From Kineosporia corallincola (lineage in GTDB: Bacteria; Actinomycetota; Actinomycetes; Actinomycetales; Kineosporiaceae), in assembly GCF_018499875.1 (NCBI RefSeq), contig NZ_JAHBAY010000013.1, positions 1-64,000 on the forward strand: 64,000 bases of DNA. Direction: 5' to 3'. A program made the position numbers and the translations under genes. The notes under the pieces were generated by a model. That model was not told where the DNA came from and made no database searches. It worked only from the letters and a program-made list of their open reading frames with translations. Below are positions 34,623 to 38,672 of the stretch, piece by piece (within the stretch, counting starts at the first letter, position 1; the number at the start of each line of letters is the position of its first letter).

Positions 34623-34722
34623 AGGAGTATGCATGGGCGATAAGTGGGTGACAAGGGGTGATTGAAACGAAATACGATGGACGGCGCGAGCCTCTTCGGC
34701 TCGCCCGGCGGGAGAGGTGCCT

Positions 34723-35748
34723 ATGAAGGAAGCAACGCTGCGTGACGTCGCCGACCTGGCCGGGGTGTCCCCGCGCACGGTCTCGAACGTGGTCAACGGG
34801 TATGCCAAGGTCACCGACGTCACCCGCCACAAGGTGGAAGCCGCGATCGCCCAGCTCGGCTACCGGCCGAACGTGCTGGCCCGGCACCTGGCCACCGGGC
34901 GCTCCGGCCAGATCGTCGTGGTGGTGCCTTATCTCGACACGCCGTACTTCTCCGAGCTGCTCCAGGCGATCATCCCGGTGGCCCGGCGGGTCGGGTACAA
35001 CGTGCTGATCGACCAGTCCGACGGCGACCGGGAGCACGAGGGTCAGCTGATCGGGCAGGCGTCGCACCGGTCGCTGTTCGACGGCATCATCTACAGCCCG
35101 CTCGGCCTGTCGCAGGACGACCTGTCGAGGCGGGACCCGGCGCTGCCCATGGTGGTGATCGGAGAACGCACGTCCACGGCCAATTTCGACCATGTCGGCA
35201 TCGACGACGTGGCGGCGTCGACCGAGGCGGTGAACCATCTGATCGGGCTGGGGCGTCGCCGGATCGCCGCGATCGGCGACCAGCCCTACCCGACCGGTGA
35301 GGCGGCCCAGCGCCGCACCAAGGGTTTTCGCGCCGCGCATGCCGCGGCCGGCCTGCCGCTCGACGAGTCGCTGATCATCGGAACGCCGCGCTTCAACCGT
35401 CTGGACGGTGCCACGGCGATGGAAAGCCTTCTGCGACTGGATAATCCGCCGGATGCGGTGTTCTGCTACAGCGACCTGGTGGCGTCCGGCGCCATTCACA
35501 CCCTGCTGCACAACGGTTTACGGGTGCCGGAAGACGTGGCGGTGATCGGGTACGACGACATCGAGGACGGTCGTTACAGCCGGCCGACGATCAGCACGAT
35601 CTCGCCGGACAAGGCCGAGATCGCCCGGATGGCGGTGGAACGGCTGGTGATGCGGATCAAGAGCCGGGAGCCGGTGCCCGGCGTCGACCTACGGGCCGGG
35701 CACCGGCTGGTGGCCCGGCAGAGCACGGTGGGGGATGCGGCGGGCTGA
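34723..35748 (+). CDS. LacI-family regulator of the arabino-oligosaccharide operon
   Basis: A 341-residue repressor. The N-terminal helix-turn-helix and hinge are TLRDVADLAGVSPRTVSNVVNG and GYRPNVLARHLATG. The periplasmic-binding-like sensor follows (IVVVVPYLDTPYFSELL, FDGIIYSPLG, DAVFCYSDLVASGAI, VAVIGYDDIEDGRYSRP). The ATG at 34723 is preferred over GTG 34717 because GGGAGAGG is then five bases upstream. It is divergent from the ABC/GH51 operon, with a 14-bp palindrome between, so it is the probable local repressor. It converges on the Panacea gene with an 11-bp gap. Confidence 0.93.
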   Translation: MKEATLRDVADLAGVSPRTVSNVVNGYAKVTDVTRHKVEAAIAQLGYRPNVLARHLATGRSGQIVVVVPYLDTPYFSELLQAIIPVARRVGYNVLIDQSDGDREHEGQLIGQASHRSLFDGIIYSPLGLSQDDLSRRDPALPMVVIGERTSTANFDHVGIDDVAASTEAVNHLIGLGRRRIAAIGDQPYPTGEAAQRRTKGFRAAHAAAGLPLDESLIIGTPRFNRLDGATAMESLLRLDNPPDAVFCYSDLVASGAIHTLLHNGLRVPEDVAVIGYDDIEDGRYSRPTISTISPDKAEIARMAVERLVMRIKSREPVPGVDLRAGHRLVARQSTVGDAAG

Positions 35749-35759
35749 GGTGCTGGACC

Positions 35760-36323
35760 TCAGGGGGATTCGTCAGGAATGGTGGCCAGGCGCTCGTAGT
35801 AGGAGCGGATGTCGGAGAGCCGGATCTCCGTGCTGCTACTGGCTTCTGGGGCCAGTCCCTCCCGGGCCGCGAGCCATGGGCCCTCGCGGTGGCTGAGCTC
35901 ACTGAGCTGGGCCCCCGTCCAGTCGCGATACCTGCCCAGGGTGTTGTGGAGGGCGGTGCGGCCCGTCGGGTGTTGCTCGACGAGTGCCGCGTTGCCCAGG
36001 GCCTCACTCTGATAACGACGCTGCTTCCACAGCTCTCGCACCACGGGCCCTGCGGCCCAGGCCTCGATGCGCTCGGGGAAGAGTGGCTCGCCGGTGAGAA
36101 CCAGGTGCTCTGCCTGCGTGTAGTAACAGAGCTTCTGGAGCTTGAGTTCGCCGGCCTGAGGACACTCGTGCAGAATGGCTGCCGCCAGGTCGAGGACGCT
36201 CACCGGATGAGCTGTGACGACGTTCTCCGGTGCCCGCAGGACCGAGACGATGGTCTCGGGCGGCTCGTCCTCTTCGTAGAAGTCGCTGACACCGTCCCAA
36301 GTGGTCATGTGTTCAGTGTGCAT
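35760..36323 (-). CDS. Panacea (DUF4065/SocA-like) antitoxin
   Basis: A 187-residue protein. After an acidic N-terminus it carries the Panacea/DUF4065 signature GELKLQKLCYYTQAEHLVL, TGEPLFPERIEAWAAGPVV and RELW near residues 58-98, then a C-terminal helix-rich segment. The domain is known as a versatile antitoxin (PanA) that neutralises unrelated toxins, and from SocA. Its ATG at 36323 overlaps the stop of the small upstream gene as TGATG with GGAGGG ahead, so the two are co-translated. An alternative ATG at 36308 has no SD. Antitoxin role is inferred from family and pairing. Confidence 0.8.
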   Translation of the reverse strand: MHTEHMTTWDGVSDFYEEDEPPETIVSVLRAPENVVTAHPVSVLDLAAAILHECPQAGELKLQKLCYYTQAEHLVLTGEPLFPERIEAWAAGPVVRELWKQRRYQSEALGNAALVEQHPTGRTALHNTLGRYRDWTGAQLSELSHREGPWLAAREGLAPEASSSTEIRLSDIRSYYERLATIPDESP

Positions 36324-36601
36324 CAGCCCTCCACTTCATAGACGCTGCCGAGCGCGAAGGTCTCGCGATCTTTCGGGCTCGGGTAAAGGACGGCCAGGCA
36401 GCGCCGGCCCCGGATCTCGACCTTGAGGTAGTAGCGCGGTCCGCGTGGCGGGTCTTGCTCATGGCGACCTCGGAGCCGGGGTTTGCACTGGATGGCGTGC
36501 CGGACCTCGTCCGGAGTGATGCCGTGCTTGCTGATGATTTTTTGGGCCACCTGATCGCTGATAAGCAGGACCGCCACCCAGATCGGGACCATATGGGGCA
36601 C
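36323..36601 (-). CDS. Putative toxin paired with Panacea antitoxin
   Basis: About 92 residues starting at GTG 36601, or 89 from ATG 36592; neither has a clear SD. A short N-terminal strand leads to SDQVAQKIISKHGITPDEVRHAIQ, a helix-turn resembling the 'KHGI..DEV' segment of BrnT/DUF4258-like small toxins. A basic loop (RLRGRHEQDPPRGPRYY) and strands LKVEIRGRRCLAVLYPS and FALGSVYEVE follow. The size, basic core and TGATG overlap with a Panacea gene are typical of a toxin gene placed first. The target (RNA, ribosome or other) is not predictable from sequence. Confidence 0.55.
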   Translation of the reverse strand: MPHMVPIWVAVLLISDQVAQKIISKHGITPDEVRHAIQCKPRLRGRHEQDPPRGPRYYLKVEIRGRRCLAVLYPSPKDRETFALGSVYEVEG

Positions 36602-36765
36602 GGATTCAGTGTGGCGGAGTCATGCCGAGTCGATCGTGCTTTTGCCAATTCCCCCCCAGGTCCGCTCTTCTGTGGGGGCAGGCGAGCCGATTCCCCCATC
36701 CGCTCCATGGAGAAAGTATGTCGGTGGGGTCCGACAGTCTTGAAGTCGCGCGGGTCCGAACGACG

Positions 36766-36799
36766 CCGGCCCGCCGACGCGAAAGCGTGGACGGGCCGG
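36766..36799 (-). terminator. Hairpin downstream of ilvD
   Basis: CCGGCCCG (36766-36773) pairs with CGGGCCGG (36792-36799). An inner ACGC/GCGT stem is capped by a GAAA tetraloop. It lies 26 bp beyond the ilvD stop. No T-run follows, so termination is likely but factor-dependent help is possible. Confidence 0.55.
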
Positions 36800-36824
36800 T
36801 CGTTCAGACGATGAGCGCTGCGAC

Positions 36825-38672
36825 CTACTCCGGCACCCGCCGGTACGCGCCGTCCGAGGCCGCGGTGGCCATCGAGGCGTACGCCCGCAGCGCCGCCGAC
36901 ACCGGGCGCTGCCGGTCGAGCGGGCTGTAGGGCTTGTCGCGCTTCTCCTGGGCGGCCCGGCGCTGGTCGAGCACCAGCTCGTCGACGTCCAGGGAGATCT
37001 TGCGGTTCGGGATGTCGATCGAGATCGGGTCGCCGTCTTCGACCAGGGCGATCAGGCCACCGCCCGCCGCCTCCGGCGAGATGTGGCCGATGGAGAGGCC
37101 ACTCGTGCCGCCGGAGAACCGGCCGTCCGTGATCAGGGCGCATTTCTGGCCCAGGCCGCGGCCTTTCAGGAACGAGGTGGGGTACAGCATCTCCTGCATG
37201 CCCGGGCCGCCCTTGGGGCCCTCGTAGCGGATCACCACGATCATGCCCTCGGTGACCTTCTTGCCCAGGATGCCCTCGACCGCGGCCTCCTGGCTCTCGA
37301 ACACGATGGCCCGGCCGGAGAACGTCCAGACCGCCTCGGGCACACCGGCCGTCTTCACCACGCAGCCGTCGGGGGCGAGGTTGCCGGAGAGGATGGCCAG
37401 GCCGCCGTCGACGGTGTAGGCGTGCTCGACGTCGCGGATGCAGCCGTCGGCCGCGTCGGTGTCGAGCGAGGCCCACTCGTTCTCGGTGGAGAACGGCTCG
37501 GTGGTGCGCACACCGCCGGGCGCGGCCCGGAACAGCTCCAGCGCCCGCTGTGACGCGGAGCCGCTGCGGATGTCCCACTCCGCCAGCCAGGTGGCCATGT
37601 CGGCCGAATGCACCGGCTTCACATCGGTGTTCAGCAGTCCGCCACGGTTCAGCTCACCGAGGATGGCGGGGATGCCGCCGGCCCGGTGCACATCTTCCAT
37701 GTGGTACTTCGGCGAGTTCGGGGCGACCTTGGCCAGGCACGGCACCCTGCGCGAGATGGCGTCGATGTCGTCGACGGTGAAGTCCATCTCCGCCTCCCGG
37801 GCGGCGGCCAGCAGGTGCAGCACCGTGTTGGTGGAACCGCCCATGGCCACGTCGAGGGCCATGGCGTTCTCGAAGGCCGAGCGGCTCGCCACGTTGCGGG
37901 GGAGAACGGACTCGTCGTCCTTGCCGTAGTAGCGGTTGGCCAGGTCGACGACCGTGGTGCCGGCGTCCTTGAACAGCTGGCGCCGGGCCTCGTGGGTGGC
38001 CAGCGTGGAGCCGTTGCCGGGCAGCGACAGGCCCATCGCCTCGGTCAGGCAGTTCATCGAGTTGGCGGTGAACATGCCGGAACACGAGCCGCAGGTGGGG
38101 CAGGCCGAGCGCTCGATCACGTCGAGCTGGTCGTCGCTGATGCGCGGGTCGGCGGCCGCGACCATGGCGTCGACCAGGTCCAGCTTGGAGTGCACGATGC
38201 CCTCGATGGCCGTGGTCTTGCCGGCCTCCATCGGGCCGCCGGACACGAACACCGTGGGGATGTTCAGCCGCAGCGCGGCCAGCAGCATGCCGGGGGTGAT
38301 CTTGTCGCAGTTCGAGATGCAGACCAGGGCGTCGGCGCAGTGCGCGTTCACCATGTACTCCACCGCGTCGGCGATCAGCTCCCGGCTGGGCAGGGAGTAG
38401 AGCATGCCGCCGTGGCCCATCGCGATGCCGTCGTCGACGGCGATCGTGTTGAACTCCTTGGAGACCGCCCCGGCCTCCTGGATCGACTCGGCGACGATCT
38501 GGCCCACGTTGCGCAGGTGCACGTGGCCCGGCACGAACTCGGTGAACGAGTTGGCGATCGCCACGATCGGCTTGCCGAAGTCGTTGTCGGTCATGCCGGT
38601 CGCACGCCAGAGCGCCCGTGCTCCCGCCATGTTGCGACCAGAGGTCGAGGTGGCCGACCGAAGCTGTGTCAT
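36825..38672 (-). CDS. ilvD: Dihydroxy-acid dehydratase
   Basis: A 615-residue cytosolic enzyme, the normal length, catalysing the third step of valine/isoleucine synthesis (2,3-dihydroxy-acids to 2-keto acids). Cluster-binding cysteines are visible in [12 protein letters not shown] and [49 protein letters not shown] and the C-terminal [21 protein letters not shown] stretch are diagnostic. No other ilv genes are adjacent; it is monocistronic between a hairpin and a 356-bp non-coding interval. No leader peptide or attenuator was identified upstream. Confidence 0.97.

Follow-up and report, generated by a model that had tools for sequence, protein, structure and literature searches.

The stretch analysed here (the window) comprises 64,000 nt of Kineosporia corallincola (contig NZ_JAHBAY010000013.1, positions 1 to 64,000) and carries on its minus strand two overlapping genes, encoding a small BrnT-like protein and an antitoxin in which a short acidic peptide precedes a Panacea (SocA/DUF4065) domain. 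Our preferred reading, to which we assign a probability of about 0.7, is that these genes form a chromosomal type II toxin-antitoxin (TA) system in which a BrnT-like, RNA-cutting toxin is neutralised mainly by the acidic peptide, with Panacea acting as an exchangeable accessory module. The pair itself, the predicted fold of the toxin and its sequence kinship to BrnT, the peptide common to the partners of related toxins, the exchange of domains behind that peptide and the insertion of the module at a variable site come directly from the computations reported here. The system is a novel pairing of known kinds, BrnT-like toxins and PanA antitoxins. A literature search for BrnT together with Panacea, DUF4065 or DUF433, with most subscription papers, preprints and supplementary data outside its coverage, found no paper, and the main texts of PMC8832971 and PMC10440598, as distinct from their data sets, do not mention BrnT; NetFlax includes RelE/ParE-fold toxins.

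The toxin and its relatives

The toxin gene (36323..36601, minus strand) encodes 92 aa from a GTG at 36601, or 89 aa from an alternative in-frame ATG at 36592, and its stop codon shares one base (TGATG) with the start of the downstream antitoxin gene (35760..36323, minus strand; 187 aa, alternative ATG at 36308). As expected of the two-gene TA-like operons of PanA antitoxins, the pair thus shows a one-base overlap and lies entirely inside a 1.08-kb insert. An earlier note on this DNA had described this overlap of a 92-residue frame with a Panacea gene and had read it as a TA pair with the toxin gene first; both open reading frames (ORFs) are confirmed, and the sequence evidence supports the TA assignment. 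Other genomes of the same class contain eight relatives (L014-L021; 24-42% identity), which indicates that the small ORF is real; three of them (L014, L016, L017) lie in similar-sized open frames with a matching partner gene.

The structure prediction that the earlier note had suggested gives the small protein a BrnT/RelE fold, in which K25 and H26 (92-aa numbering) form a putative active-site pair that would correspond to the catalytic K16-H17 of BrnT. Across the 13 rows of a family alignment, one of them the window toxin, K21, G54 and R56 are invariant (13/13) and H26 is kept in 12 rows, while the K25 position varies within the clade. The impression that the segment KHGITPDEV recalls BrnT is supported; the proposal of a new toxin type is not, since the predicted fold and the K-H motif both belong to the BrnT/RelE superfamily, though the window toxin is a separate subfamily within it. 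Compared with BrnT of the BrnT-BrnA system of Brucella abortus (PF04365), it falls under the Pfam cut-off, lies outside the starred branch (96/95) of our tree in which six BrnT rows group (three are annotated, two exceed the Pfam cut-off and one stays below it), is longer at the N-terminus by about six residues, with a short strand there, and has Tyr where the arginine of the SAR motif stands. Pfam BrnT reaches E < 1 in just 2 of the 13 family members. NCBIfam offered no name for the window protein and nothing consistent for the 13 members, and PADLOC returned nothing for either window protein. Other candidate identities were rejected: the sole match in a PDB sequence search with the 13-row toxin profile (A9) was a chance ribosomal protein (E 1.3), and the weak Pfam matches (Clp_N, RepB_primase_C, Inovirus_capsid and others) were each below cut-off and confined to single members.

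Relatives of the window toxin occur in the same class, with hardly any in its own order. The order search matched 13 of 297 genomes at E <= 0.01, own genome counted; eleven of the 12 non-self matches were judged to be chance, being very short or in the frames of other genes and absent from the A9 results at E 0.1, and the twelfth (L002) is a family match over two frames. At E <= 0.001, the class search matched 11 of 394 genomes (own genome counted), and 8 of the other 10 look real. Two family searches matched 2 of 35 genomes, both already known, and 9 of 250, the latter adding L028, L029, L031, L032 and L033, and a genome_contigs scan returned six loci, three of them known members from Frankia (two) and Planobispora siamensis. 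A profile search with A9 matched 19 of 296 genomes of the phylum, own genome counted. Rows L022 and L023 of the class search were dropped by judgement before the partners were read, as were L034 (A9 E 3.2e-5, inside a long frame) and L035 from the family searches, L041-L043 from the genome_contigs scan, and L058, L059, L062 and L057/L063 (one gene in two frames) from the phylum search. A BrnT family search in 98 class genomes gave 0 matches. Phage or plasmid origin was rejected, since at the sensitivities used the window toxin matched nothing in plasmid and phage collections, the L016 and L032 toxins matched nothing among plasmids, and three viral_contigs scans yielded no confirmed relative. 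Several relatives look broken, with L002 (1309-1760) and L057/L063 split over two frames and L015 (1073-1288) ending at residue 74, which suggests turnover of the TA module.

The acidic peptide and the domains behind it

Related toxins have partners that share an acidic peptide at the N-terminus, DFYEEDEPPETIVSVLRAPENVVTAHP in the window antitoxin (residues 14-40, DFYEEDEP...; 36204..36284, minus strand), which we regard as the putative neutraliser. Behind it, at residues 62-150 (35874..36140, minus strand), lies the Panacea domain (PF13274, E 2.5e-14, 54.6 bits against a cut-off of 25.7), a putative accessory or sensor that stands at the C-terminus where BrnA has a ribbon-helix-helix (RHH) domain; the NCBIfam SocA model NF047745 scores 43.6 bits, below its cut-off of 190. 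The clade has eight toxins, and for seven of them (window, L014, L016, L017, L028, L029, L031) the next gene begins with such a peptide. It reads DFYEEDEPPETIV in the window, where it is joined to Panacea; DFYEDDEPVEKIV in the 73-aa partner of L014; FFYEEDEPVEDVI in L017, within 48 aa counted from the sole start codon; SFYEDDEDPSELF in the 111-aa partner of L028; and DF[FY]VEDESPxEI in the 86-aa and 94-aa partners of L029 and L031. The short partners of L014, L028 and L031, when scanned, contained no Pfam family over cut-off. In L016, the peptide DFYEDDEPLAKIL is followed by HTH_66 (over cut-off) and a weak DUF433 match, an arrangement resembling VapB45-type HTH_66/DUF433 antitoxins; the toxin of those systems is a PIN protein, whereas that of L016 is BrnT-like. 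The match to the eighth clade toxin, L015, stops at residue 74, and no such peptide comes after it.

The window peptide was noticed by eye before any held-out test, and the six training loci were picked by toxin similarity, not by peptide. A model built from their six peptides, without the window, ranked the window antitoxin first (E 5.1e-8; next E 1.3) in a search space of 1074 ORFs, drawn from the window together with 16 other Panacea loci. A direct genome search with the peptide found it in 2 of 296 genomes, adjoining the toxin in both, and missed the window's own antitoxin; because of this evident insensitivity, the held-out test is preferred.

Partners of other types accompany more distant toxins. 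RHH/CopG domains exceed the Pfam cut-off only in the partners of L053 and L060; those of L048, L050, L051, L052, L054, L055 and L056 are RHH-like by eye or through weak matches (L054 by eye, outside the Pfam scan). The possibility that the acidic peptide and the N-terminal tails of such RHH-type (BrnA-like) partners descend from a common ancestor was considered and not established, as only L048 stood out when the peptide model was run against 674 ORFs. A more distant toxin subfamily (L032, 1783-2187; L033, 1003-1407, minus strand) has yet another partner, HicB-like by eye, which represents a further partner exchange; Pfam returned nothing for the L032 and L033 partners, and the L019 partner is likewise HicB-like by eye only. 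A third gene, DUF6941 (PF22091), follows toxin and partner over cut-off in L014 (1992-2444), L032 (2070-2666) and L033 (539-1345) and weakly in L019 (2075-2440), and the third gene of L028 is similar by eye only; a literature search for DUF6941 with a toxin found no paper.

Panacea genes elsewhere in the class keep different company. Sixteen others, from 15 of 215 other class genomes, have alignments to the window antitoxin that begin no earlier than residue 20 (at 38-42 in 14 of the 16), and at their loci the peptide model did not find the acidic peptide, nor did the A9 profile find a toxin of the window's family. Their neighbours differ and include Fic proteins (Pfam-confirmed in L073, by eye in others). 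An 80-107-aa gene with motifs like PYQGVRR..GFxNLW[YF]xxVP lies just after Panacea in L067, L068, L072 and L074 (without a Pfam match in the L068 copy and split over two frames in L074), and may be a Panacea partner; a second possible partner is a gene of about 158 aa, without a Pfam match, that follows Panacea in L064 (1958-2434) and L065 (1989-2468).

Mechanism and alternative explanations

In the proposed mechanism, the BrnT-like toxin would stop growth, most likely by cutting RNA (mRNA or rRNA) with an active site centred on the K-H pair, and antitoxin residues 14-40 would lie across this basic site. Panacea, behind the peptide, would most likely serve as a sensor or stability switch deciding when the toxin is released; relatives carry in this position an HTH_66 protein with weak similarity to DUF433 (L016) or no domain that could be recognised. 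The closest parallel is RelS-RelI of Mycobacterium tuberculosis (Rv2663-Rv2664), in which the toxin RelS is described as BrnT-like and its active site as covered by an N-terminal helix of the antitoxin, RelI D8 and D12 forming salt bridges to RelS K9, H10, H64 and R69 (PMC13284704). Both systems would set an acidic N-terminal antitoxin segment against a K-H active site, although neutralisation is known for RelI, RelS is likened here by description and not by sequence, and RelI is described with a helix-turn-helix (HTH)-like helical body and no Panacea, which the window antitoxin has. Panacea, in turn, is reported to neutralise when alone; in antitoxins with a dedicated segment it is described as accessory, perhaps sensing a cue that is not yet known (PMC10440598). 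The PanAT systems described there with a dedicated neutraliser (PAD1, Phd-C or an MqsA-type zinc-binding domain) likewise join Panacea to a distinct neutralising segment that corresponds to the family of the toxin; in the window, by comparison, a short acidic peptide would fill this role against a BrnT-like toxin. Combining these two literatures, we infer that the peptide plugs the toxin and that Panacea is exchangeable behind it. The constancy of the peptide across partners, also in those without Panacea, points the same way, making the peptide the likely active-site plug and Panacea the likely accessory or sensor. RNA cleavage by the toxin, neutralisation by the peptide and sensing by Panacea are putative activities.

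Several observations weigh against the preferred reading. The window toxin scores only 13.5 bits with Pfam BrnT (PF04365; E 0.094), under the gathering cut-off of 34.5, and Foldseek alone produced no match at E <= 0.001 and no BrnT among the top 50 listed, BrnT surfacing only in the VIA re-alignment. Tyr stands at the arginine of the BrnT-type SAR motif in 9 of the 12 family rows reaching that position, the window included, so that catalysis may differ or be lost (BrnT R72 was equated with the SAR arginine from spacing only). On the partner side, fusion to Panacea occurred in a single genome among the loci whose partners were read, partners at the more distant RHH-type loci were hardly detected by the peptide model (the best, that of L048, with E 0.01 for the whole protein and 0.39 for the best stretch), and the antitoxin structure prediction (predicted local distance difference test score, pLDDT, of 39.6) was too poor for use.

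Among the alternatives, the one that fares best, doubtful as we consider it, retains neutralisation by the peptide and holds that dimerisation or operator binding, and hence operon regulation instead of trigger sensing, has become the task of Panacea. Panacea does occupy the place of HTH_66 in L016 and of RHH/CopG in the distant relatives L053 and L060, but the account of PanA antitoxins in PMC10440598 argues against transcriptional autoregulation by Panacea and assigns many of them a separate HTH. A PanAT pair in which Panacea itself binds and neutralises the toxin, the peptide being a minor contact or linker, is unlikely in our view: standalone Panacea domains neutralise directly (PMC10440598) and that of the window is well over its Pfam cut-off, yet the partners of related toxins have the peptide without Panacea, and the 16 other Panacea genes do not adjoin a toxin of the window's family, so that the evidence, albeit indirect, speaks against Panacea being needed for neutralisation. 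The earlier argument that the first gene is the likely toxin because Panacea neutralises is likewise not supported, since the peptide that is constant across partners also occurs without Panacea; the order itself, with the toxin gene first, is supported. Least likely of all, a non-toxic BrnT-like protein, decayed or put to another use and acting as an RNA-binding or regulatory partner, would accord with the Tyr in the SAR-type motif and the variable K25, but fits poorly with the retained overlapping TA-like operon and with the conservation of H26, K21, G54 and R56.

If the preferred reading is correct, the clade offers a natural matched set, with one toxin clade and one inhibitor peptide with and without Panacea, in which the role of Panacea is testable; its contribution could be isolated by setting the window antitoxin against the short partners of L014 and L017. 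The reading would also extend the RelS-RelI way of blocking a BrnT-like active site by an acidic segment, and add a BrnT-like toxin to the partners of Panacea.

Genomic site and promoter-like element

The module is accessory DNA at a variable site, a 1076-bp insert (35749..36824) between the ends of two convergent genes outside the module: a LacI-family regulator (34717..35748, plus strand) and a gene that we take to be ilvD (dihydroxy-acid dehydratase; 36825..38672, minus strand). The latter is present in all five genus mates compared, and the LacI-type gene adjoins the site in three of the five (L081, L083, L084), the fetched stretches of L082 and L085 ending before any LacI-type gene. The accessory status of the module follows from the comparison: G135 (L083) has an empty site, with about 50 bp between ilvD and the LacI-type gene, G107 (L081) and G189 (L084) have other DNA of about 0.4-0.5 kb before the LacI-type gene, and in G121 (L085) ilvD is followed by another gene. 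No mobile element was seen beside the module, in agreement with the earlier note, which had also seen no obvious cargo; the pair itself is accessory DNA.

About 120 nt before the toxin start lies a promoter-like element, TTCAAGACTGTCGGACCC-N6-CATACT (36715..36744, minus strand), resembling the actinobacterial RecA-independent (PafBC) DNA-damage promoter. RecA-independent damage genes are described with the consensus tTGTCRgtg - 8 nt - TannnT (PMC5656591), and PafBC as acting on such promoters (PMC6789036); the window element matches TGTCGG exactly, keeps the spacing of 8 and has C for T in its -10 hexamer, CATACT. The 18-mer TTCAAGACTGTCGGACCC occurs with up to two mismatches at 10 places in six genomes of the genus, the window included (L090-L099), against 0 for a reversed control; the next hexamer at the same spacing starts with TA in 7 of the 10 copies and CA in 3, some copies being possible orthologues, and one copy (L093, genus mate) precedes a dinB-type polymerase gene, named by eye. 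A sigma-70 scan found no promoter at the element, and a loose promoter pattern occurred twice in the window against 0.63 expected, which is not rarer than chance (at least two in 12 of 100 shuffles). A PafBC-type damage promoter before the toxin is thus a lead only. Building on it, one may tentatively picture a clade of BrnT-like ribonuclease toxins with a portable acidic inhibitor joined to Panacea, HTH_66 or no recognised domain, whose window version, driven from a PafBC-type promoter, would place a single RNA-cutting toxin under both a damage signal and a trigger acting through Panacea; we see this as possible and not as probable.

Two genus mates add observations on the site. In G107, about 55 bp of the DNA that separates ilvD from the LacI-type gene are also found in the promoter region of the window (L081, 1392-1413 region; L094); tblastn found neither toxin nor antitoxin there, and the stretch is perhaps a remnant of an earlier insert. 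In G065 (L082, 3509-4608), an HTH_17 gene comes after ilvD and a PIN_3 gene after that; the two are likely a different, VapBC-like TA pair, so that the site may be a TA hotspot.
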